Positions 16,500-43,652 of a stretch of DNA of 64,000 bases are shown piece after piece. Made by a program: the position numbers and the translations under genes. Every line of letters starts with the position of its first letter. Within the stretch, counting starts at the first letter, position 1. Source of the DNA: Rhodospirillaceae bacterium (GTDB lineage: Bacteria > Pseudomonadota > Alphaproteobacteria > Rhodospirillales > UBA2165); contig NZAK01000030.1 of the NCBI GenBank assembly GCA_002687515.1, positions 1 through 64,000 of the forward strand. The letters are read 5' to 3'. The notes below the pieces were generated by a model. It saw only the letters and a program-made list of their open reading frames with translations. It had not been told where the DNA came from and did no database searches.

Positions 16500-17819
16500 A
16501 TGGATACAGGCATCGCTTCAACCGTCGGCCTGAACCTCGACTACCAGACCGGCTTCGGCAACGAATTTCAGACCGAAGCCGTGGCCGGCGCCCTGCCTGA
16601 GGGCAGGAATTCACCGCAGAAGGCGCCCCTCGGGCTCTATGCGGAGATCATCTCGGGCACCGCCTTCACGGCGCCCCGGGCCGACAATCAGCGCACCTGG
16701 TTCTACCGCATCCGGCCGTCGGTGGTGCACAAGCCGTTCCGGCAGGTGGACGCCAAGCACTTACGCGGCGCGCCCTTCGACGATGCCCCCGCCAATCCCA
16801 GCCAGATGCGCTGGAACCCGCCTGCCATTCCCGAAGCGCCGACCGACTTTATCGACGGCCTGATGACCCTCTGCGGCGGCGGCGATGCGATGGCCGGCGG
16901 CGGACTGGCGGTGCATATCTACGCCGCCAATACCTCGATGACCGAGCGGTTTTTCTACAACGCCGACGGTGAGTTTCTGATCGTGCCCCAGATGGGCCGC
17001 ATACTGCTGCGAACCGAAATGGGCAATCTGGAATTCGGGCCCGGTGAGATCGGGCTCGCGCCGCGCGGCGTCAAGTTCCACGTCGAACTGCCGGACGGCG
17101 AGGCGCGCGGCTATGTCGCCGAGAATTTCGGCGCCGCCCTGCGCTTGCCCAACCTTGGCCCGATCGGTTCCAACGGGCTCGCCAATCCGCGCGACTTCAA
17201 AACGCCGGTGGCGGCCTTCGAGGACCGCGAGGGAGATTTTACCCTGACAGCTAAGTTCGAGGGCAATCTGTGGGACGCCGAGATCGGTCATTCGCCGCTC
17301 GACGTGGTCGGCTGGCACGGCAACCTGGCGCCTTATAAATACAACCTCGCCGATTTCATGGTTATCAACACGGTCAGTTTCGACCATTGCGATCCGTCCA
17401 TCTTCACGGTGCTGACCTCGCAGTCGGCGACGCCGGGCACCGCCAATCTGGATTTCGTCATCTTCCCGCCGCGCTGGATGGTCGGCGAGGACACCTACCG
17501 GCCGCCCTGGTTCCACCGCAATTACATGAGCGAGTTCATGGGCCTGATTACCGGCGCCTATGACGGCCGCGAGGAAGGTTTCGTTCCCGGCGGATCGAGC
17601 CTGCACAACCGCATGACGCCGCACGGCAACGATGCCGAGGTCTATGAAAAGGCGAGCACCGAAAAGCTTGAGCCCACCTACCTCGCCGATACCATGGCCT
17701 TCATGTTCGAAACCCACCTCGCCTACCGGCCGACCCGCTTCGCCCTCGAAACACCGCTTTTGCAGAAGAATTATTTCGAAACCTGGCAAGGGCTGAAAAG
17801 GCATTTCAAGGGTGGATAG
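16500..17819 (+). CDS. hmgA: Homogentisate 1,2-dioxygenase
   Basis: This iron enzyme opens the ring of homogentisate to maleylacetoacetate in tyrosine and phenylalanine breakdown. The N-terminal signature [13 protein letters not shown] and the blocks [43 protein letters not shown] and [13 protein letters not shown], with the metal-ligand region, are all present. ATG 16500 gives 439 residues, the family length; an upstream in-frame GTG at 16449 adds residues with no similarity. The next gene, a P450, overlaps its end by eight bases. The usual partners, fumarylacetoacetase and maleylacetoacetate isomerase, are not in the window. Confidence 0.95.
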
Positions 17820-19038
17820 TCCGGCAAATCCCGGCGCCGATGAGGCGCGCGCCTTCGATCTCAATGCCATCGGCGACGAATTCCTGGAAAACCCGTTTCC
17901 CATGTACCGGGCCTTGCGCGAACATGCGCCGATCCACATCAACCCGGACGGCACCTATTTCCTGACCCGCTATGACGACGTCATGGCCGGCTATCGCCAC
18001 CGGGCGATGAGTTCCGATAAGAAAGTCGATTTCAAACCCAAGTTCGGCGGCGGCCCGCTTTACACCCACCACACCACTTCCCTGGTGTTCAACGATGATC
18101 CCTACCACAAGCGGGTGCGCAAGCTCCTGGCCGGCGCCTTTTCGCCGCGCCAGCTTGCGGCCCTGACCCCGGTGATCGAAGACATTGTCGAGAAAATGCT
18201 GGACGATGTCGCCGAGATGGGCAGCTTCGATGCGGTCACCGACTACGCCTTGCGCCTGCCGACCGAGATTATCGCCGATATGCTGGGCGTGCCCGAAGCC
18301 CACCGGCACCTAATGCACGGCTATTCAAACCTGATCCTGGGCGCCCTCGATCCCATCGTGCCGCCGGCCAAGATGGCGGCAGGCCACCAAGCGGTGGAGG
18401 AATTCGGCGCCCTGCTCGCCGACCTGATCGATCACCGCAGGAAACACCCCGGCGAAGGCGAGCGCGGCGAAGTGTTGGCCGCGCTGATCTTCGGCGAGAT
18501 CGACGGCGAGAAACTGAGCGACGAGGAATTGGTGCAGAACTGTATCTTCCTGTTGAACGCCGGCCACGAAACGACGGCCAGCATGGTCGGCCATGGGCTC
18601 GCCACCTTGCTCGAAAATCCGGTTGAATTGCGGCGACTGCAGGGTGATCCGGGCCTGATCGAACCGGCGGTGGAGGAGTTCTTGCGCCTGCAAAGCCCGC
18701 TGCAGATCGGCCACCGCAAGGCCACCGAGGATGTGGAATTTTCATCGGCCACCATCCCCGCCGGCGCCTTCATCCATCTTTGTATCGCCGGCGCCAACCG
18801 CGATCCGGAAGTCTTCGACGATCCGGAAAATGTCGATATCGGGCGCGATCCAAATCCGCAGATTTCGTTCGGCGCCGGCCAGCATGTCTGCATGGGCAAT
18901 ACGCTGGGCCGTATCGAGGGGCGGATCGCCATCGGCCGCTTCGTCGAGCGCTTTGCCAAGATGCGCCAGGCCGGCGAGAAGCGTTATCACGGCCGCGCCA
19001 AATTCCGCGGCTTGAAAACCTTGCCGATGGAAGTGTAA
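17812..19038 (+). CDS. Cytochrome P450
   Basis: This is a soluble bacterial monooxygenase of 408 residues. The I-helix motif [11 protein letters not shown] carries the acid/alcohol pair for oxygen activation, EEFLR is the K-helix ExxR, and [10 protein letters not shown] holds the heme thiolate Cys360. It starts with GTG and overlaps hmgA by eight bases, so translation is coupled. That link suggests a role in aromatic or phenylacetate-type oxidation, but the substrate is unknown. No ferredoxin or reductase gene is adjacent, so it must borrow redox partners. Confidence 0.93.
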
Positions 19039-32850: not shown

Positions 32851-32991
32851 CGCATTATCCGGCCGGATAAACCACGCCGGAACGGGCGGGGGCCCTTCAA
32901 TCGGCCGCACCCGGGTGCTAGACTGGCCGCCGCGCGAAGCGCAAACTGTAATTCGAACGGGTTGCCAAGGGGGATGCAAGGGGGAACGATC

Positions 32992-34047
32992 GTGGCGGAA
33001 CCGGAAAACCAGGCCGAACGCGAAGCCTATTACGCCAAGATCGACAAGACCGATATGTCGCCGCTATGGACCACCACCCTGGTACCGCCCCTGCCCAAGG
33101 ATTTCGTCCGCGCCGTGCCCCATCTTTGGGATTTTGACAACCAACTGCGGCCCTTGCTGATCGAGGCCGGCGGCTTGATCACCGCCTTTGAGGCCAACCG
33201 GCGGGTTTTGTCGCTGGAAAATCCGGGCCTCGACCAGCCGCCGCGGATTCTCGAAAGCCTCTATGCCGGCTTGCAGATGATCCTGCCCGGCGAATGCGCG
33301 CCGGCGCACAAGCACACGCCGTCGGCGCTGCGCTTCATCTTAGAGGGCGAGGGCGCCTGGACCGCCGTTTCCGGCGAAAAATCCTACATGAAGCCGGGCG
33401 ATTTTATCATCACGCCGTCGATGACCTGGCACGATCACGGCCATGACGGCGACGGCCCCTTTTTCTGGATGGACGGGCTGGATATCCCGATGGTCGCCGC
33501 CTTCGGCCCGATGTTCTTCGAGGGCTACCCGGAAGACCGCGCGCCGTTGCACCGCCCGCCCGGCGACAGCCGCGCCCGCTACGGCGCCAACATGCGCCCG
33601 GCCGGCGAAAGCTGGGACAATCCGGAATCGCCGATCTTCCACTATCCGTACGAACCTTCGCGCGAAGCCCTCGAGGAATTGCGCAAAAACGACGAATGGG
33701 ACCCTTATGCCGGCATCAAGCTGGAATATATCGATCCGACCACCGGCGGCAGCGCCATGCCGACCATGTCCACCTTCCTGCAACTCCTGCCCAAGGGCTT
33801 CAAGACCGAGGCATACCGAAGCACCGAAAACACCGTGTTTTCCCCGGTCGAGGGAACGGGCCGCATCATCGCCGGCGAACCGGGCGCCGAGAAAACCATC
33901 GAATGGAAGCCCCGCGATATTTTCGCTATCCCCTGCTGGGTTGCCTACCGGCTGGAGGCGGACACCGAGGCCACCCTGTTCAGCTACACCGACCGGACGG
34001 CGCAAGTGAAACTTGGCCTCTGGCGCGAACTGCGCGGCAATGCCTGA
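32992..34047 (+). CDS. Gentisate 1,2-dioxygenase-like bicupin
   Basis: This iron-dependent ring-cleavage enzyme opens gentisate (2,5-dihydroxybenzoate) to maleylpyruvate. The N-terminal cupin has the metal-ligand block PAHKHTPSALRFILEGEGAW and MTWHDHGH, and a second cupin near the C-terminus (IFAIPCWVAYRLEA) completes the bicupin fold. I placed the start at GTG 32992 (AEPENQAEREAYYAKID) because it is preceded by AAGGGGGA at proper spacing; ATG 32974 and TTG 32962 are alternatives. The length of 351 residues is typical. 1-Hydroxy-2-naphthoate and salicylate dioxygenases share the fold, so the exact substrate is open. Maleylpyruvate isomerase and fumarylpyruvate hydrolase genes are absent nearby. 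Confidence 0.88.
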   Translation: MAEPENQAEREAYYAKIDKTDMSPLWTTTLVPPLPKDFVRAVPHLWDFDNQLRPLLIEAGGLITAFEANRRVLSLENPGLDQPPRILESLYAGLQMILPGECAPAHKHTPSALRFILEGEGAWTAVSGEKSYMKPGDFIITPSMTWHDHGHDGDGPFFWMDGLDIPMVAAFGPMFFEGYPEDRAPLHRPPGDSRARYGANMRPAGESWDNPESPIFHYPYEPSREALEELRKNDEWDPYAGIKLEYIDPTTGGSAMPTMSTFLQLLPKGFKTEAYRSTENTVFSPVEGTGRIIAGEPGAEKTIEWKPRDIFAIPCWVAYRLEADTEATLFSYTDRTAQVKLGLWRELRGNA

Positions 34048-34110: not shown

Positions 34111-36447
34111 ATGAACGAACGCATAGGAGACCCCGTCCGGCGCAAGGAAGACAAGCGCTTGATCACCGGCCAAGGCTGTTTCAGCGATGATTTCAACCAG
34201 CCCGGCCAGCTTTACGCCCAGGTCGTGCGCTCGCCGCACGCCCATGCCGCCATCCGCGGCATCGATACCGCCGATGCCGCCGCCCAGCCCGGCGTCGTCG
34301 CCGTCTTCACCGGCGCCGATTTAGAGGCCGACGGGCTCAAACCGATTCCCCACAACCCGGTGCCGACCTCGGGCCTGGATATCACGCTGGTCAACCGGGA
34401 CGGGTCGAAGATGGTTATCTGCCCCCATTTTGTCCTGACCACCGACCGTGTCCGTTATGTCGGCGAGTCGGTCGCCCTGGTCATTGCCGAAACGCTGGCC
34501 GCCGCCAAGGACGGCGCCGAGCGGGTTGCCGTCGATTACCAGCCCCTGCCCCCGGTCACGGTCACCAAGGACGCGGTCGAGGCGGACGCGCCGATACTTT
34601 ACGACGGCCATGATTCCAATCTCTGTATCGACGCCGATGTCGGCGACAGGCAAGCCGCCGAGGCCGCTTTCGCCGAGGCCGCGCACGTGGTCAAGTTCGA
34701 AACCTGGATCGGGCGCGTCACCGGCGTGCCGATGGAGCCGCGCGCCGCGGTCGGCGTTTATGACGAGGATACCGGGCGCTACACCCTCTATGCCGGCGGC
34801 GGCAGCATCGTCCGCCCGAAAATGGAACTGGCTCATATCCTTGGGATCGAGCCCGACATGGTGCGCGTGGTGGCGAAGGAGGTCGGCGGCAATTTCGGCA
34901 CCCGTAATTCCTTTTTCCCGGAATTCGCAATGATGCCCTGGGCGGCGAAAAAGCTGGGCCGCCCGGTGAAATGGACGGCCGAGCGTTCCGAATCCTTCCT
35001 CACCGATTACCAGGGCCGCGATCTGCATGTGGAAGCCGAATTGGCGCTCGACGAGGATGGCAATTTCCTGGGATTGCGCGGTTCCAACATCGGAAATATC
35101 GGCGCCCACACCATATCCCTGGTGCCGCTGACCAAGGGCGTCGAGATCATGACCGGCGTCTATCGCATTCCGGCGGCATATTTCCGGGCGCGCGGCGTGC
35201 ATTCCAACACGGCTCCGATCAATCCGTATCGCTCCGCCGGCCGGCCCGAGGTGATCTATGTCATCGAGCGGCTGGTCGATCTGGCGGCGCGCGAATGCGG
35301 CTTCGATGCGATCGAATTGCGCCGCCGCAACATGATCAAGCCCGACGAAATGCCCTATGCCAACGGCCTCGGCATGACCTACGATTCCGGCGCTTACGAG
35401 CAGGTGATGGACCAGGCCATCGGCCTTTCCGACCTGCCCGGTTTTGCGGCGCGTAAAGCGGCATCGGCGAAGCGCGGCCTCCATCGCGGCCTCGGCATCG
35501 CCGCCTATATGGAAACCTCCACCGGGGCGCCGCGCGAACGCACCGAGATGACCGTGCATCCCGAAGGCGGGATCGACGTCGTGATCGGCACCCTGTCCAG
35601 CGGCCAGGGCCATGAAACCAGCTTCGCCCAACTGATCACCGAATGGCTGGACGTGCCCATCGACGCGGTCAGCCTGATCACCGGCGACACCGACATCGTG
35701 GAGGTCGGCGGCGGCACCCATTCGGGCCGCTCGATGCGGCTTGCCAGCGTCGTCATCGGCATGGCCACCGAGGTGATCATCGAAAAAGGCAAGCACATCG
35801 CAAGCCACGTCCTGGAGGCATCCGAAACCGATATGGAATTCACCGATGGCCGCTTCGGCATCAAGGGCACCGACCGCTCCCTCGATATATTCGAGGTCGC
35901 CAAGGCGGCGATGGAGCGGCACGATTTGCCCGAGGATCTGCAAGGGCCGCTGACCGGCGAGGGCGATTTCACCCAGACCAAGCCGGCCTATCCCTTCGGC
36001 TGCCACATCTGCGAGGTCGAGGTCGACGCCGACACCGGCCAGGTCGAGATCGTCCGCTATGTCGGCGTCGACGACGTCGGGCGGGCCATCAATCCCCTGA
36101 TCCTGCACGGCCAGGCCCATGGCGGCATCGTCCAGGGCCTCGGCCAGGCGCTTTTGGAAAGCACCGCTTACGATGCCGAGACCGGGCAGATGCACGGCGG
36201 CTCGTTCATGGATTACGCGATGCCGCGGGCCGGCAACATGCCGTCCTTCATCGTCGAGATTTCCGAAGTGCCGACGCCGATCAACCCGCTCGGCATCCGC
36301 GCCGGCGGCGAGGGCGGCACGACGCCGGCCCTCGGCGTCTTGGTCAACGCTATTGTCGATGCCTTGGCCGAATTCGGCGTCCGCCACGTGGAAATGCCGA
36401 CGACGCCGGAAAAGGTCTGGCGCGCCATCCAAGTGGCGAGGGCATGA
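34111..36447 (+). CDS. Xanthine dehydrogenase family molybdopterin-binding subunit, orphan
   Basis: The 778-residue protein is the large Mo-cofactor subunit of a hydroxylase of the xanthine dehydrogenase / CO dehydrogenase family. Visible blocks are GDPVRRKEDKRLITGQG, VRYVGESVALVIA, KEVGGNFGTRN and the catalytic GEGGTTPA with Glu734. The loop reading INPYRSAGRPE lacks the active-site Cys of true CO dehydrogenases, so CO oxidation is unlikely; an aromatic or N-heterocycle hydroxylase is more probable. The FAD and 2Fe-2S subunits usually encoded beside it are missing on both sides. It lies between the gentisate dioxygenase and the DszB-like gene on the same strand. Confidence 0.9.
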   Translation: MNERIGDPVRRKEDKRLITGQGCFSDDFNQPGQLYAQVVRSPHAHAAIRGIDTADAAAQPGVVAVFTGADLEADGLKPIPHNPVPTSGLDITLVNRDGSKMVICPHFVLTTDRVRYVGESVALVIAETLAAAKDGAERVAVDYQPLPPVTVTKDAVEADAPILYDGHDSNLCIDADVGDRQAAEAAFAEAAHVVKFETWIGRVTGVPMEPRAAVGVYDEDTGRYTLYAGGGSIVRPKMELAHILGIEPDMVRVVAKEVGGNFGTRNSFFPEFAMMPWAAKKLGRPVKWTAERSESFLTDYQGRDLHVEAELALDEDGNFLGLRGSNIGNIGAHTISLVPLTKGVEIMTGVYRIPAAYFRARGVHSNTAPINPYRSAGRPEVIYVIERLVDLAARECGFDAIELRRRNMIKPDEMPYANGLGMTYDSGAYEQVMDQAIGLSDLPGFAARKAASAKRGLHRGLGIAAYMETSTGAPRERTEMTVHPEGGIDVVIGTLSSGQGHETSFAQLITEWLDVPIDAVSLITGDTDIVEVGGGTHSGRSMRLASVVIGMATEVIIEKGKHIASHVLEASETDMEFTDGRFGIKGTDRSLDIFEVAKAAMERHDLPEDLQGPLTGEGDFTQTKPAYPFGCHICEVEVDADTGQVEIVRYVGVDDVGRAINPLILHGQAHGGIVQGLGQALLESTAYDAETGQMHGGSFMDYAMPRAGNMPSFIVEISEVPTPINPLGIRAGGEGGTTPALGVLVNAIVDALAEFGVRHVEMPTTPEKVWRAIQVARA

Positions 36448-36536
36448 GCGGCGCGATGGGTCCAAACAAATTCACAGACTCGGGCCGCCGGTTGGTTTAC
36501 ATTTGAACCCGATAACCGTGAATCGGGGGAGCAAGC

Positions 36537-37622
36537 ATGCCGGATCAAACCGTAATCGAACCCTTGCACGGGTCGAGGCGCGGCGGCCAGGCGATTGAAA
36601 GCCTGTGGTACACGCGCTGCCCGGTGCCGACCGCCAGTTCGATCGCCATCGATCACGGCTGGCTGGACGCCGAATTCGCCGACGAAGGCATCACCATCTC
36701 GTCCTTGCGCGCATCCGAAGCGCGCGAAGTGCGCGAATCCCACTTTGATCACCGGCAAGCGGATTCCTTCCGCCAAGGCGGCAATATACCACCGATCTGG
36801 ACCCGCGCCGGCGGCGGCGACATGGCGCTCATCGGGCTTACCTGGGTGGAGGAATACCAGGCGGTGCTCGCCCTGCCCGAATCCGGGATCAAGAATGTGC
36901 GCGGGCTCAAGGGCCGGCGCATCGGGATTCCCAAGCGGGTCAATGACCAAATCGATTTTTTCCGTGCCATGTGCCTGCGCGGCGTGCTGACCGCGCTTGC
37001 CATCGAGGGGATGGACGAAAAAGATGTGGAACTGGTTTATCTTCCGGTCGAGGAGACCTATATCGGCGCCGACGCCGCCTCCCACAGCGGCACCCTTTGG
37101 GCCGGCGGCAACCGCGCCCGCCGTCAGAAGGCCGATAGCTTCGCCCTGATCAGGGGCGAGGTGGATGCCATTTATACGATTGGCGCGACGGGAGCCCATA
37201 TGGCGGCATCCCTCGGCGCGGTCGAAGTCGCCGAGTTCGGCTTTAACGCCGATCCGGCGATAAGCGGCGGCAACGAAACACCGGCGGCGCTGACGGTAAG
37301 CGGCGCGCTGTTGCGCGAACGCCCCGATCTGGTGGCGCGCTATATGAAGCAGTTGCTATTAGCGGCGCGCTGGGCCGAGGACAACCCGTGGGCCACGGCC
37401 GCAATCGTTGCCGCCGATGTCGGCGCCCCCCTGGAATGGGCCGGAGCGGCTTATGGTCCAGATTTCCACGCCAAGTTTGCGCCGGGCCTCGACGACGATT
37501 GGATCGCCGGCCTTAAGGCGCAAAAGGATTTCCTTTTGAAATGGGCCTTCATCGAAGGCGATTTCGATATCGACGATTGGATCGATTCGGGGCCCTTGGA
37601 AATGGCCCGCGCGATGCTTTGA
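36537..37622 (+). CDS. DszB-like desulfinase candidate (SsuA/NMT1-type fold)
   Basis: The 361-residue protein has the periplasmic-binding-protein fold but no signal peptide. It resembles 2'-hydroxybiphenyl-2-sulfinate desulfinase (DszB): YTRCPVPTA parallels the NCPVPNA that holds its catalytic Cys27, and SHFDHRQADSFRQGGNIPP parallels the His60/Arg70 segment. The matching residues are Cys28, His69 and Arg79, and the His-Arg distance of 10 is the same. The later blocks GRRIGIPK, GEVDAIYT and LLRERPDLVARYMKQLL also match in order. A C-S or related bond cleavage in the cytoplasm is therefore plausible. It could instead be a cytosolic sulfonate or aromatic binding protein. No dszA or dszC is adjacent. 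Confidence 0.62.
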   Translation: MPDQTVIEPLHGSRRGGQAIESLWYTRCPVPTASSIAIDHGWLDAEFADEGITISSLRASEAREVRESHFDHRQADSFRQGGNIPPIWTRAGGGDMALIGLTWVEEYQAVLALPESGIKNVRGLKGRRIGIPKRVNDQIDFFRAMCLRGVLTALAIEGMDEKDVELVYLPVEETYIGADAASHSGTLWAGGNRARRQKADSFALIRGEVDAIYTIGATGAHMAASLGAVEVAEFGFNADPAISGGNETPAALTVSGALLRERPDLVARYMKQLLLAARWAEDNPWATAAIVAADVGAPLEWAGAAYGPDFHAKFAPGLDDDWIAGLKAQKDFLLKWAFIEGDFDIDDWIDSGPLEMARAML

Positions 37623-37697: not shown

Positions 37698-39047
37698 ATG
37701 GCAGGCGGTAAAGGTCCGGTGAGCAAGCCGAGGCGCACTGTCATCATGGGTGCGGCGGGGCGCGATTTCCATAATTTCAACATGGTCTATCGCGGCGATC
37801 CTGGCGCCGAGGTGCTGGCCTTCACGGCGGCGCAAATCCCCGGTATCGAGGGCCGCCGCTACCCGCCCGAGCTTGCCGGCCCGCTCTACCCCGATGGCAT
37901 CCCGATCATCGAGGAAGCCGGCCTGACCGATTTCTGCGGCGCGCACGGGGTCAGCGAGATTGTCTTCGCCTATTCCGATGTCGAGTACGCCACCGTCATG
38001 CATCATGCCTCGCGGGCGCTCGCCGCCGGCGCCGACTTCATCCAGTTGGGTCCGGCGCGCACGATGATCGATGCGGCCAAGCCGGTGATCGCGGTATCGG
38101 CGATCCGCACCGGCTGCGGCAAGTCGCAGACCACCCGGCACCTGTCCAGGTTCCTGCGCGGCCGCGGCCTCGGGGTCGCCGTCATCCGCCATCCCATGCC
38201 CTATGGAGATCTCGCCGCCCAGGCGGTGCAGCGCTTCGCCAGCCTCCATGACCTGGCGGCGGCGGACTGCACCATCGAAGAGCGCGAGGAGTACGAACCC
38301 CACATCGCCGAGGGGACGCTGGTTTTTGCCGGCGTCGATTACCAAACCATCGGCGAAGCGGCCGCCAAGGAGGCCGATATCCTGCTCTGGGACGGCGGCA
38401 ACAACGATTTTCCGTTCTACCGGCCGGACCTGCATATCGTGCTCGCCGACGCCCTGCGCCCGGGCCAGGAAACCACCCACCATCCCGGCGAGGCGGTGTT
38501 GCGCATGGCCGATATCGCGGTCATCGCCAAGTCCGACGCCGCCGAAGCCGGCGCCATCGATGAGGTAACGCGCAATATCCGCGCCATTGTCCCCGATGTG
38601 CCGCTGGTCCATGCCGCATCGCCGGTGGTGCTGGATGACGCCGGCGCGGTTCATGGCAGGCGCGCCCTGGTGGTCGAGGACGGCCCGACCCTGACCCATG
38701 GCGGCATGGCCCATGGCGCCGGGCTCATCGCGGCGCGCGAGGCCGGCGCCGGGGCCATCGTCGATCCCCGGAGTTCGGCGGCGCCGGCCATCGCCGAGGT
38801 CTATGAACGCTATCCCCATCTGGGGCCGGTGCTGCCTGCGGTCGGCTACGGCGCGGCGCAGGTGGCGGCGCTCGAGGCAACCATCGATGCCGCCGATGCC
38901 GAGGTGGTCGTCGCCGCGACGCCGATCGACCTGGCCCGCCTGATCGATGTCGGGAAGCCGATCATCCGGGCGCGCTATGCCTATGCCGATATCGATGCCC
39001 CCACCCTCACCGGCCTGGTCGGCGCGTTTCTGGATGGTATGAATTAA
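37698..39047 (+). CDS. Cyclic 2,3-diphosphoglycerate synthetase-like GTPase
   Basis: The 449-residue protein resembles archaeal cyclic 2,3-diphosphoglycerate synthetase and its many bacterial homologues annotated as GTPases. A first domain reads RRTVIMGAAGRDFHNFN. A P-loop lies at 135-146 (AIRTGCGKSQTT), followed by LLWDGGNNDFPF and VIAKSDAA, which resembles a nucleotide-specificity motif. In archaea the product is a thermoprotectant; a bacterial role is unknown, and a phosphoryl-ligase function on another metabolite is possible. It starts 75 bases after the DszB-like gene on the same strand. Confidence 0.78.
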   Translation: MAGGKGPVSKPRRTVIMGAAGRDFHNFNMVYRGDPGAEVLAFTAAQIPGIEGRRYPPELAGPLYPDGIPIIEEAGLTDFCGAHGVSEIVFAYSDVEYATVMHHASRALAAGADFIQLGPARTMIDAAKPVIAVSAIRTGCGKSQTTRHLSRFLRGRGLGVAVIRHPMPYGDLAAQAVQRFASLHDLAAADCTIEEREEYEPHIAEGTLVFAGVDYQTIGEAAAKEADILLWDGGNNDFPFYRPDLHIVLADALRPGQETTHHPGEAVLRMADIAVIAKSDAAEAGAIDEVTRNIRAIVPDVPLVHAASPVVLDDAGAVHGRRALVVEDGPTLTHGGMAHGAGLIAAREAGAGAIVDPRSSAAPAIAEVYERYPHLGPVLPAVGYGAAQVAALEATIDAADAEVVVAATPIDLARLIDVGKPIIRARYAYADIDAPTLTGLVGAFLDGMN

Positions 39048-39123: not shown

Positions 39124-40206
39124 ATGTTCTATCGATGCGCCCCCCATGCCCCCGCCACCGATCACGGCCACGGCATCCAAGTCGGCCAGGGCAAGAAGCA
39201 TTTTACCGTCGACATCCATTGCCACGTGGCGGTGCCGGCGGCCGACGCCGCCCTCGAAGGCGCCGAGCCGTCGCAAAGGCAGAAAGCCAATGCCGAGCGC
39301 AACCCGCTGACCGCCGAGATCAACGCCCGCCAGGCCGAAAGCATCGCCGCCAACCTGACCGACCCCAAGGTGCGCCTCAAAGACATGGACCGCGACGGCA
39401 TCGACGTGCAGGCCATATCGCCATCGCCGTTCCATTACAATTACGGCTATCCGGCGGACGCGACCCGGGAATCGTGCCGCATCATCAATGACCGGGTGGC
39501 CGAAATCGTGGCTGCGCACCCGGACCGCTTCGTCGGCATGGGCACGGTGCCGTTGCAGGACGCCGGCATGGCGGTCGCCGAAATGAACCGCTGCATCGAT
39601 GATCTCGGCCTCAAGGGGATCGAGATTTCGACCAATGTCGACGGCAAGGAACTGACCCGCGCCGGCCTCGAAAGCTTTTTCGCCCGCGCCGAGGAAACCG
39701 GCACCCTGATCTTCATGCACCCGATCGGCACCAGCTTCACCGAACGCATGGACGACCATTATTTCCGCAACCTGATCGGCCATCCCCTGGAAAGCGCGCT
39801 GGCCGTCGGGCATCTGGTCTTCGACGGCTATCTCGACCGCTATCCCGGCCTTAAAATCTGCATCGCCCATGGCGGCGGCTATATCCCTTCCTATTGGGGC
39901 CGCTTCGATCACCCCTGGGAGCGGCGCGATGATTGCCGCGTAAATATCGGCACGACGCCGATGGAGCATGTGAAGAAGCTCTATTTCGACACTGTCGTCT
40001 TCAACGAGCCGCAGCTGCGCCACCTTATCGAGGTCTGGGGGCCCGATCACATCGTCATGGGCACCGACTATCCGTTCGACATGGCCCAGCCCGATCCGGT
40101 CGGCCACGTCGATTCGGTCCAGGGCCTGAGCGACGCCGACAAGGCCCGGGTCATGGGCGGCAACGCCGCGAAGCTGCTCGGCATCGAAGTTCCGGCGGCG
40201 GCATAA
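39124..40206 (+). CDS. Amidohydrolase-family decarboxylase or hydrolase (ACMSD-like)
   Basis: This is a metal-dependent TIM-barrel enzyme of the amidohydrolase-2 group, which includes aminocarboxymuconate semialdehyde decarboxylase and resorcylate-type decarboxylases. The metal site shows DIHCHV (His32, His34), FMHPIG, ICIAHGGGYIP and the Asp in MGTDYPFDM. ATG 39124 follows AAGGAAG and gives 360 residues; an upstream in-frame start adds an unconserved tail. Its neighbours (gentisate-type dioxygenase, Mo hydroxylase) suit ring-cleavage product or aromatic acid decarboxylation, but the substrate is not defined. It converges with the quinone oxidoreductase gene. Confidence 0.88.
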   Translation: MFYRCAPHAPATDHGHGIQVGQGKKHFTVDIHCHVAVPAADAALEGAEPSQRQKANAERNPLTAEINARQAESIAANLTDPKVRLKDMDRDGIDVQAISPSPFHYNYGYPADATRESCRIINDRVAEIVAAHPDRFVGMGTVPLQDAGMAVAEMNRCIDDLGLKGIEISTNVDGKELTRAGLESFFARAEETGTLIFMHPIGTSFTERMDDHYFRNLIGHPLESALAVGHLVFDGYLDRYPGLKICIAHGGGYIPSYWGRFDHPWERRDDCRVNIGTTPMEHVKKLYFDTVVFNEPQLRHLIEVWGPDHIVMGTDYPFDMAQPDPVGHVDSVQGLSDADKARVMGGNAAKLLGIEVPAAA

Positions 40207-43211: not shown

Positions 43212-43652
43212 TCACGCCGCCGCGTCAGCAACACTGAGCTCCAACCGTTTGCCGAGGATCGCAAGCGCGTCTTCGAGGCGCGTGATCTTGGTTTTATGGC
43301 GCGGGCTCAGCATGCGCCGTACTTCGGCTTCGCCCACGCCGAGCGCCTTGGCGAGGGCGACCCTGGTTGTGCCGGATTCGCGAAACGCTTGGTTGAGCGC
43401 CGCCTTCGCCGCGATCAGGACGCCCGGGCGCACCAGCGACCGCCCACGTGCCGGCGAGGGTTTGGGCAGGGCTTCTCCCTCGACCAGCAAGCCGGCGATC
43501 ATTTCTTCCAGGCAGTCCTGCGCTTCCTCAAGGGCTTCGTCCCGGGTTGCGCCGTCGGTGGCGCCCCAACCGAAGTCGGGAAAAGAGACGACGAACCTGC
43601 CATCTTCATCCTCGGTAAGCTTGGCGGGGTATGCGAGCGAGATAGTGGTCAT
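43212..43652 (-). CDS. hicB: HicB-family antitoxin with helix-turn-helix
   Basis: This is the antitoxin of a HicAB type II module. The N-terminal HicB fold (about 1-70) shows LAYPAKLTEDEDGRFVVSFPDFGWGATDG and an EALEEAQDCLEEMI helix, and a C-terminal Xre-type helix-turn-helix (about 90-135, VALAKALGVGEAEVRRML) binds the operator. The length of 146 residues is normal for the HTH type. It starts 11 bases after the broken hicA gene on the same strand. A palindrome before hicA is its likely operator. Confidence 0.9.
   Translation of the reverse strand: MTTISLAYPAKLTEDEDGRFVVSFPDFGWGATDGATRDEALEEAQDCLEEMIAGLLVEGEALPKPSPARGRSLVRPGVLIAAKAALNQAFRESGTTRVALAKALGVGEAEVRRMLSPRHKTKITRLEDALAILGKRLELSVADAAA

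Follow-up and report, generated by a model that had tools for sequence, protein, structure and literature searches.

The gene at positions 36537-37622 of the window, the whole stretch of 64,000 nucleotides analysed here, encodes a real and intact member of the DszB superfamily lying outside DszB proper, and judging from the sequence and from a predicted model its product is most likely a cytosolic desulfinase acting on some sulfinate. The fuller reading, to which we give about even chances, is that of a cofactor-free enzyme of this superfamily which probably acts on a sulfinate smaller than, or different from, that of DszB and whose small subgroup dispenses with monooxygenase partners and has a role in aromatic ring cleavage at least in Sneathiellales. 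DszB is described as the cofactor-free desulfinase of biodesulfurization, whose step in the process is slow and inhibited by its product (PMC6100217, PMC12168087). Relatives having the catalytic residues of DszB but another pocket and lid would represent natural alternatives to it, and the ring-cleavage context, if functional, would bring to light that aryl sulfinates are used in carbon catabolism. Homology, fold, residue conservation and gene context were established computationally; since the draft genome has 87% completeness and 5.9% contamination, statements on absence apply to the contig and the assembly. The gene and its elements are positioned as follows.

36537..37622, + strand: DszB-family desulfinase-like gene, 361 aa, ATG start
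36525..36531, + strand: Shine-Dalgarno-like GGGGGAG, read directly, ending 5 bases before the ATG at 36537
36618-36620, + strand: codon of Cys28
36741-36743, + strand: codon of His69
36771-36773, + strand: codon of Arg79

Searched with phmmer, the best relative in PDB was DszB (2DE2, E=6.9e-22, residues 12-349), SsuA reaching just 0.002, while hmmsearch with a 50-row family profile, which includes one annotated DszB relative (L104), gave 1.7e-69 for DszB and 1.2e-8 for SsuA. The AlphaFold2 model built from 40 alignment rows (mean pLDDT 91.7, pTM 0.89) retrieved DszB as the top Foldseek match (8.2e-22 versus 1.0e-13 for SsuA) and was superimposed by VIA-align on DszB 2DE3 with Z=34.6 and rmsd 2.8 Å over 320 residues, the best SsuA having Z=25.6; the comparison with DszB crystal structures proposed in the preliminary description, made here for the whole model, was thus settled in favour of DszB by a wide margin. 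The same description had assumed that the catalytic Cys, His and Arg of DszB are kept, and the alignment bears this out: Ser25, Cys27, His60, Arg70, Gly72 and Gly73 of DszB are paired with Thr26, Cys28, His69, Arg79, Gly81 and Gly82, the His-Arg spacing being 10 in both proteins. Full-length homology, the nearest fold and the presence of Cys, His and the RxGG arginine place the protein within the DszB superfamily. For DszB, the modelled active site is reported to consist of Cys27, His60, Arg70, Ser25 and Gly73, with RXGG as a motif conserved among homologs; C27S is inactive, H60Q suffers a 17-fold loss of activity, the lid 187-204 folds upon substrate binding, and the chemistry is protonation of a ring carbon (PMC6100217). 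By analogy, Arg79 and the Gly81-Gly82 turn would hold the sulfinate, His69 located on the lid helix would enter upon substrate binding, and Cys28 would donate a proton to the sulfinate-bearing ring carbon, so that sulfite departs and an unsubstituted ring is left. It is on this likeness that we infer catalysis.

In structural alignment the identity to DszB is about 27%, and apart from the fold and the Cys/His/Arg-x-Gly-Gly site the two proteins have in common a hydroxyl residue at position 25/26, the lack of a signal peptide and their length. They differ in the segment bearing Trp155 of DszB, which among the rows compared is found only in 2DE2 and L104 and is missing in the window protein and all other listed rows, in the lid region (187-204 of DszB), and in the dszA/dszC operon, present around L104 and absent around the window gene. 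The missing Trp155 segment and the absence of dszA/dszC-like genes rule out that the protein is DszB itself. Given the lack of this pocket segment and the divergent lid, the substrate is probably smaller than or different from hydroxybiphenyl sulfinate; the latter, as far as such comparison can tell, is probably not what the enzyme accepts.

The overall fold is also that of an aromatic-acid enzyme, 4,5-dihydroxyphthalate decarboxylase (9JP7), and one may suppose a ring-protonating enzyme with a leaving group other than sulfite, for example an aromatic decarboxylase of this kind, which we regard as improbable. Ring-carbon protonation, as described for DszB (PMC6100217), could equally expel CO2; the neighbours of the gene are carbon-catabolic, no dedicated organosulfur gene was recognised in the window, the family profile does reach 9JP7 at E=0.012, and the model matches it with Z=14.2. 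This relation, drawn from overall fold and profile, is nevertheless weak in sequence, and the structural match (rank 45) is far below that of DszB and approximately equal to those of unrelated binding proteins ranked in that search. Moreover, the Cys, His and RxGG motif follow DszB, and the Sneathiellales operon considered below includes genes for an importer of Ssu type and for a YeiH transporter, which speaks against the decarboxylase reading.

The two-domain fold is shared with the periplasmic binding proteins SsuA/TauA/NMT1 as well (Z about 20-26), which differ in having a signal peptide, ABC transporter neighbours and no Cys/His/Arg site. The best 14-residue Kyte-Doolittle mean within the first 45 residues of the window protein is 0.62 versus 1.94-2.51 in four transport binding proteins; by hydropathy no signal peptide was found in the 361-aa protein, which agrees with the earlier suggestion that it is not a periplasmic receptor and sets it, as cytosolic, apart from the secreted SsuA/NMT1 proteins. 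From 147 ORFs matching the family profile, 68 rows (52 of the family and 16 transport binding proteins) were retained, leaving out those with at least 80% identity to a kept row, the contig-end fragment L004 and a weak match from the window's own genome (L002). Cys, His and Arg are all kept in 45 of the 52 family rows, and neither Cys28 nor His69 nor Arg79 occurs in any of the transport binding proteins (0/16). Arg79-x-Gly-Gly is present in 52/52, the count for Arg being partly built in by selection because an Arg-Gly-Gly stretch was part of one of the two patterns by which most loci had been retrieved; Cys and His were absent from both patterns. The 50-row set used for the subgroup tree and motif counts omitted six rows without Cys or His together with several near-duplicates, and its Cys/His percentages are for this reason disregarded; a 10-row alignment with one row in a wrong frame (L014) entered no count. 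In the IQ-TREE reconstruction of 56 rows (52 family and four binding proteins) the split between the groups has support of 100/99 and leaves the window protein outside the binding-protein cluster, which answers the tree check proposed beforehand; L104, an annotated DszB relative from plasmid pMyong1 with a dszABC-like operon, branches with the family, at the end of a long branch. The reading as a periplasmic transport binding protein was rejected on the evidence of the tree, the residues, the N-terminus and the fold.

There might still be a cytosolic binding or sensor protein descended from transport binding proteins and devoid of catalysis, and this option we consider very improbable. The Pfam NMT1 match above cut-off (24.3 bits over 20.5, residues 90-172 only), accompanied by an NCBIfam SsuA_fam match below cut-off, is consistent with such descent, and the loss of Cys or His in 7 of the 52 family rows indicates that non-catalytic members may exist. 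The window protein, however, keeps Cys, His, Arg and RxGG together with a hydroxyl residue at the position of DszB Ser25, it has no hydropathic signal peptide, genes for an ABC permease or an ATPase are lacking next to it, and the tree separates it from binding proteins. Six loci (L011, L030, L044, L062, L087 and L088) hold DszB-like paralogues without Cys and/or His along with intact ones, and these may possibly be non-catalytic partners or binding proteins. In public plasmid records the relatives, where annotated, are called “ABC transporter substrate-binding protein”, owing to which the enzyme family is probably widely mislabelled.

The usual surroundings of the family were assessed in 80 genome loci obtained from a single scan of public genomes. 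Within the stretch covered at each locus, a DszA/SsuD-like luciferase-family monooxygenase is found in 77 of them and a DszC/SfnB-like gene of the acyl-CoA-dehydrogenase family additionally in 64 of the 80, and annotated plasmid examples agree with this context. By gene content, the usual layout corresponds to a 4S-like route of sulfur acquisition, where sulfur would be oxidised, one C-S bond cut and desulfination follow. A comparable arrangement is known for BdsA, the desulfinase of the benzothiophene bdsABC operon from Gordonia terrae C-6 (PMC3868597), an operon reported to have low similarity to dsz (PMC11852219): compared by gene layout, it resembles the family in that the desulfinase stands beside monooxygenase and Ssu-like transport genes, and differs from the window gene, which adjoins no monooxygenase. 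Loci without a monooxygenase match are L012, L013 and L025, the first having a monooxygenase fragment just upstream (31% over 116 residues). The absence of monooxygenase around the window gene is therefore unusual for DszB-like loci. In the respective Fisher test (2.9e-6) related loci enter as if they were independent and L012 is scored among those devoid of the gene, so that the value serves as a guide only; most other loci belong to Rhizobiaceae and Burkholderiales and are hence non-independent.

In the best tree the window protein is grouped with three others: that of L013 from Ca. Tectomicrobia, its closest relative (60% identical), whose genome (G446) is the only one of its phylum in the collection; that of L025, a Sneathiella MAG; and that of L138, another genome of the same order, Sneathiellales. 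Support for this group is weak (71/21), and the grouping rests mainly on shared motifs, namely Cys146 and Asp294, each found in 4/4 members versus 1/46 others, and the lid motif [TS]LW[AS]G--RA-RQ. DszA/SsuD-like monooxygenase was found in 0/4 subgroup loci, the full 64-kb window included, and by gene context the subgroup appears to have left the usual sulfur-scavenging partners. In the literature searched no enzyme assay of any subgroup member was found. No ring-cleavage gene was recognised near L013; at L013:11296-13854 glycosyltransferase-like and EgtB/SenA-like genes were seen by eye, which are reminiscent of selenoneine synthesis and probably unrelated.

Ring-cleavage genes accompany the subgroup in the two Sneathiellales genomes, where they form a conserved operon.

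L025:8856-20564 and L138:7526-18824: Sneathiellales operon (SNEATHIELLALES operon)

The common order starts with an amidohydrolase (88% identical), the DszB-like gene (73%), a Rid-family protein and homogentisate 1,2-dioxygenase hmgA (80%), continues with Ssu-like ATPase, permease and binding protein followed by fumarylacetoacetase (FAH), and ends with genes for a flavin monooxygenase, a regulator of MarR type and a transporter of the YeiH family. In L025 homogentisate 1,2-dioxygenase and fumarylacetoacetase exceed the cut-offs of TIGR01015 and TIGR01266, respectively; the flavin monooxygenase is nearest to 3-hydroxybenzoate 6-monooxygenase, below cut-off, and the transporter is below the cut-off of TIGR00698 and above that of PF03601. 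Apart from L025, none of the remaining 79 loci of the scan contains homogentisate dioxygenase, fumarylacetoacetase, flavin monooxygenase, YeiH or Rid (E<=1e-10). In Salmonella, the YeiH membrane protein is reported to drive resistance to sulfite stress (PMC12880088). Because one operon brings together a desulfinase with enzymes for hydroxylation and ring opening, with import functions and with an exporter related to sulfite, this arrangement suggests a dissimilatory aryl-sulfinate pathway, in which the enzyme of the subgroup would carry out desulfination inside aromatic catabolism, serving ring cleavage at least in Sneathiellales. More generally, the DszB-type branch might have moved from sulfur scavenging to carbon catabolism, with aryl sulfinates being imported, desulfinated by the Cys28 enzyme without cofactor, and hydroxylated to hydroquinone-type rings that homogentisate or gentisate dioxygenases would open, the sulfite being expelled by the YeiH-type exporter. 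This extended scheme, attractive mainly because of the Sneathiellales operon, is a tentative one and rather unlikely as a whole. Neither a dissimilatory aryl-sulfinate pathway nor a paper on a DszB-like enzyme accompanied by gentisate or homogentisate genes was found in the literature searched.

As had been indicated in the preliminary description, the neighbours of the window gene are a gentisate 1,2-dioxygenase, a molybdenum hydroxylase subunit and an amidohydrolase, and they are arranged as follows.

32974..34047 (scanned as 32962-34047), + strand: gentisate 1,2-dioxygenase, TIGR02272 at 454.6 bits versus cut-off 442.1
34111..36447, + strand: CoxL-type molybdenum hydroxylase large subunit, ending 89 bases upstream of the desulfinase-like gene
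37698..39047, + strand: GTPase-like protein, starting 75 bases downstream of the desulfinase-like gene
39124..40206, + strand: amidohydrolase-2 protein of the ACMSD decarboxylase branch (PF04909; ACMSD 2WM1, E=7e-58)

From the gentisate dioxygenase (best solved relative 2D40, E=6e-101) through the amidohydrolase, five codirected genes are separated by gaps of 63 to 89 bases, with no terminator-like site revealed by a simple scan between 36447 and 37698. Neither an FAD nor a 2Fe-2S subunit gene was recognised beside the CoxL-type subunit. The GTPase-like protein has no Pfam or NCBIfam matches and shows a weak relationship to cyclic 2,3-diphosphoglycerate synthetase (9SXB, E=0.0014); a 65% relative in a genome of the same order (G301, L093) lies beside a gene that by eye is carbamate kinase-like (L112). 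The lack of dszA and dszC claimed beforehand holds for the entire 64-kb window (tblastn, E<=1e-3, seven monooxygenase queries). From this organization, a DszB-type enzyme placed among aromatic-ring-degrading genes may remove sulfur from an aromatic compound. Nevertheless, L109, a locus from a same-genus genome (G423), keeps the flagellin-like gene, gentisate dioxygenase (90% identical) and CoxL (83%) without the desulfinase-like gene, having other genes between the conserved ones and a different gene in the slot after CoxL. The gentisate dioxygenase/CoxL pair is for this reason downgraded as proof of a joint pathway. By tblastn a luciferase-family monooxygenase was noticed at L109:7497-7949, among the genes that separate gentisate dioxygenase from CoxL; it shares 33% identity with the monooxygenase of a relative over 166 residues, and TauD-like and aldolase-like genes were seen by eye upstream.

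Within the order the desulfinase-like gene occurs in 1/150 genomes, the one being that of the window, in 3/289 of the class and, at E<=1e-60, in 7/398 of the phylum, own genome included, and the GTPase gene in 2/41 relatives, again with the own one. Given these low frequencies within the order and among relatives and the lack of the gene in L109, both genes look like a variable insert after the gentisate dioxygenase/CoxL pair, and the neighbourhood in the window is by itself weak as evidence for a pathway. The earlier proposal of an aromatic C-S or C-C cleavage route, read from the neighbours, is hence upheld only in part: it loses the local pair, which persists in L109 without the gene, and draws support from the Sneathiellales operon and from the lost monooxygenase neighbours. 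An insertion of this kind would also fit the same chemistry used for ordinary sulfur scavenging, with sulfinates coming from unlinked monooxygenases and the position among aromatic-degradation genes being an accident, an explanation that we rate as unlikely. Nearly all relatives do reside in clusters resembling those for sulfur assimilation, the other gene in the L109 slot and the 1/150 occurrence are what a recent arrival would give, and the genome possesses three luciferase-like monooxygenase genes, all on other contigs. Reading of the starts of their sequences did not establish a likeness to DszA, however, and against scavenging stand the loss of the monooxygenase neighbour by every subgroup member and the conservation in two genomes of the Sneathiellales operon with ring-cleavage genes. 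Preferring a desulfinase linked to ring cleavage at least in Sneathiellales, we regard that operon as a better candidate for aryl-sulfinate catabolism than the window.

The amidohydrolases of the window and of the Sneathiellales operon are not orthologous (28% over 156 residues), the nearest PDB rows of the latter being other amidohydrolases from another branch than ACMSD, so that with differing branches the parallel concerns the enzyme class only. The single PF03601 (YeiH) match of the window's genome is located on another contig and is uninformative for the desulfinase-like gene, because PF03601 also matches 6 of 14 control genomes. At 16500-19035, 19 kb from the desulfinase-like gene, the window contains a homogentisate 1,2-dioxygenase (TIGR01015), 48% identical to that of the Sneathiellales operon and followed by an ORF that by eye is P450-like. 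On the opposite strand, the ORF at 43215-43652 is one that we take to be a HicB-like antitoxin, with no HicA seen adjoining. Further along the same contig, beyond the window (L146, G000:C26), three genes similar by eye to molybdenum hydroxylase subunits adjoin an NMT1-like transporter.
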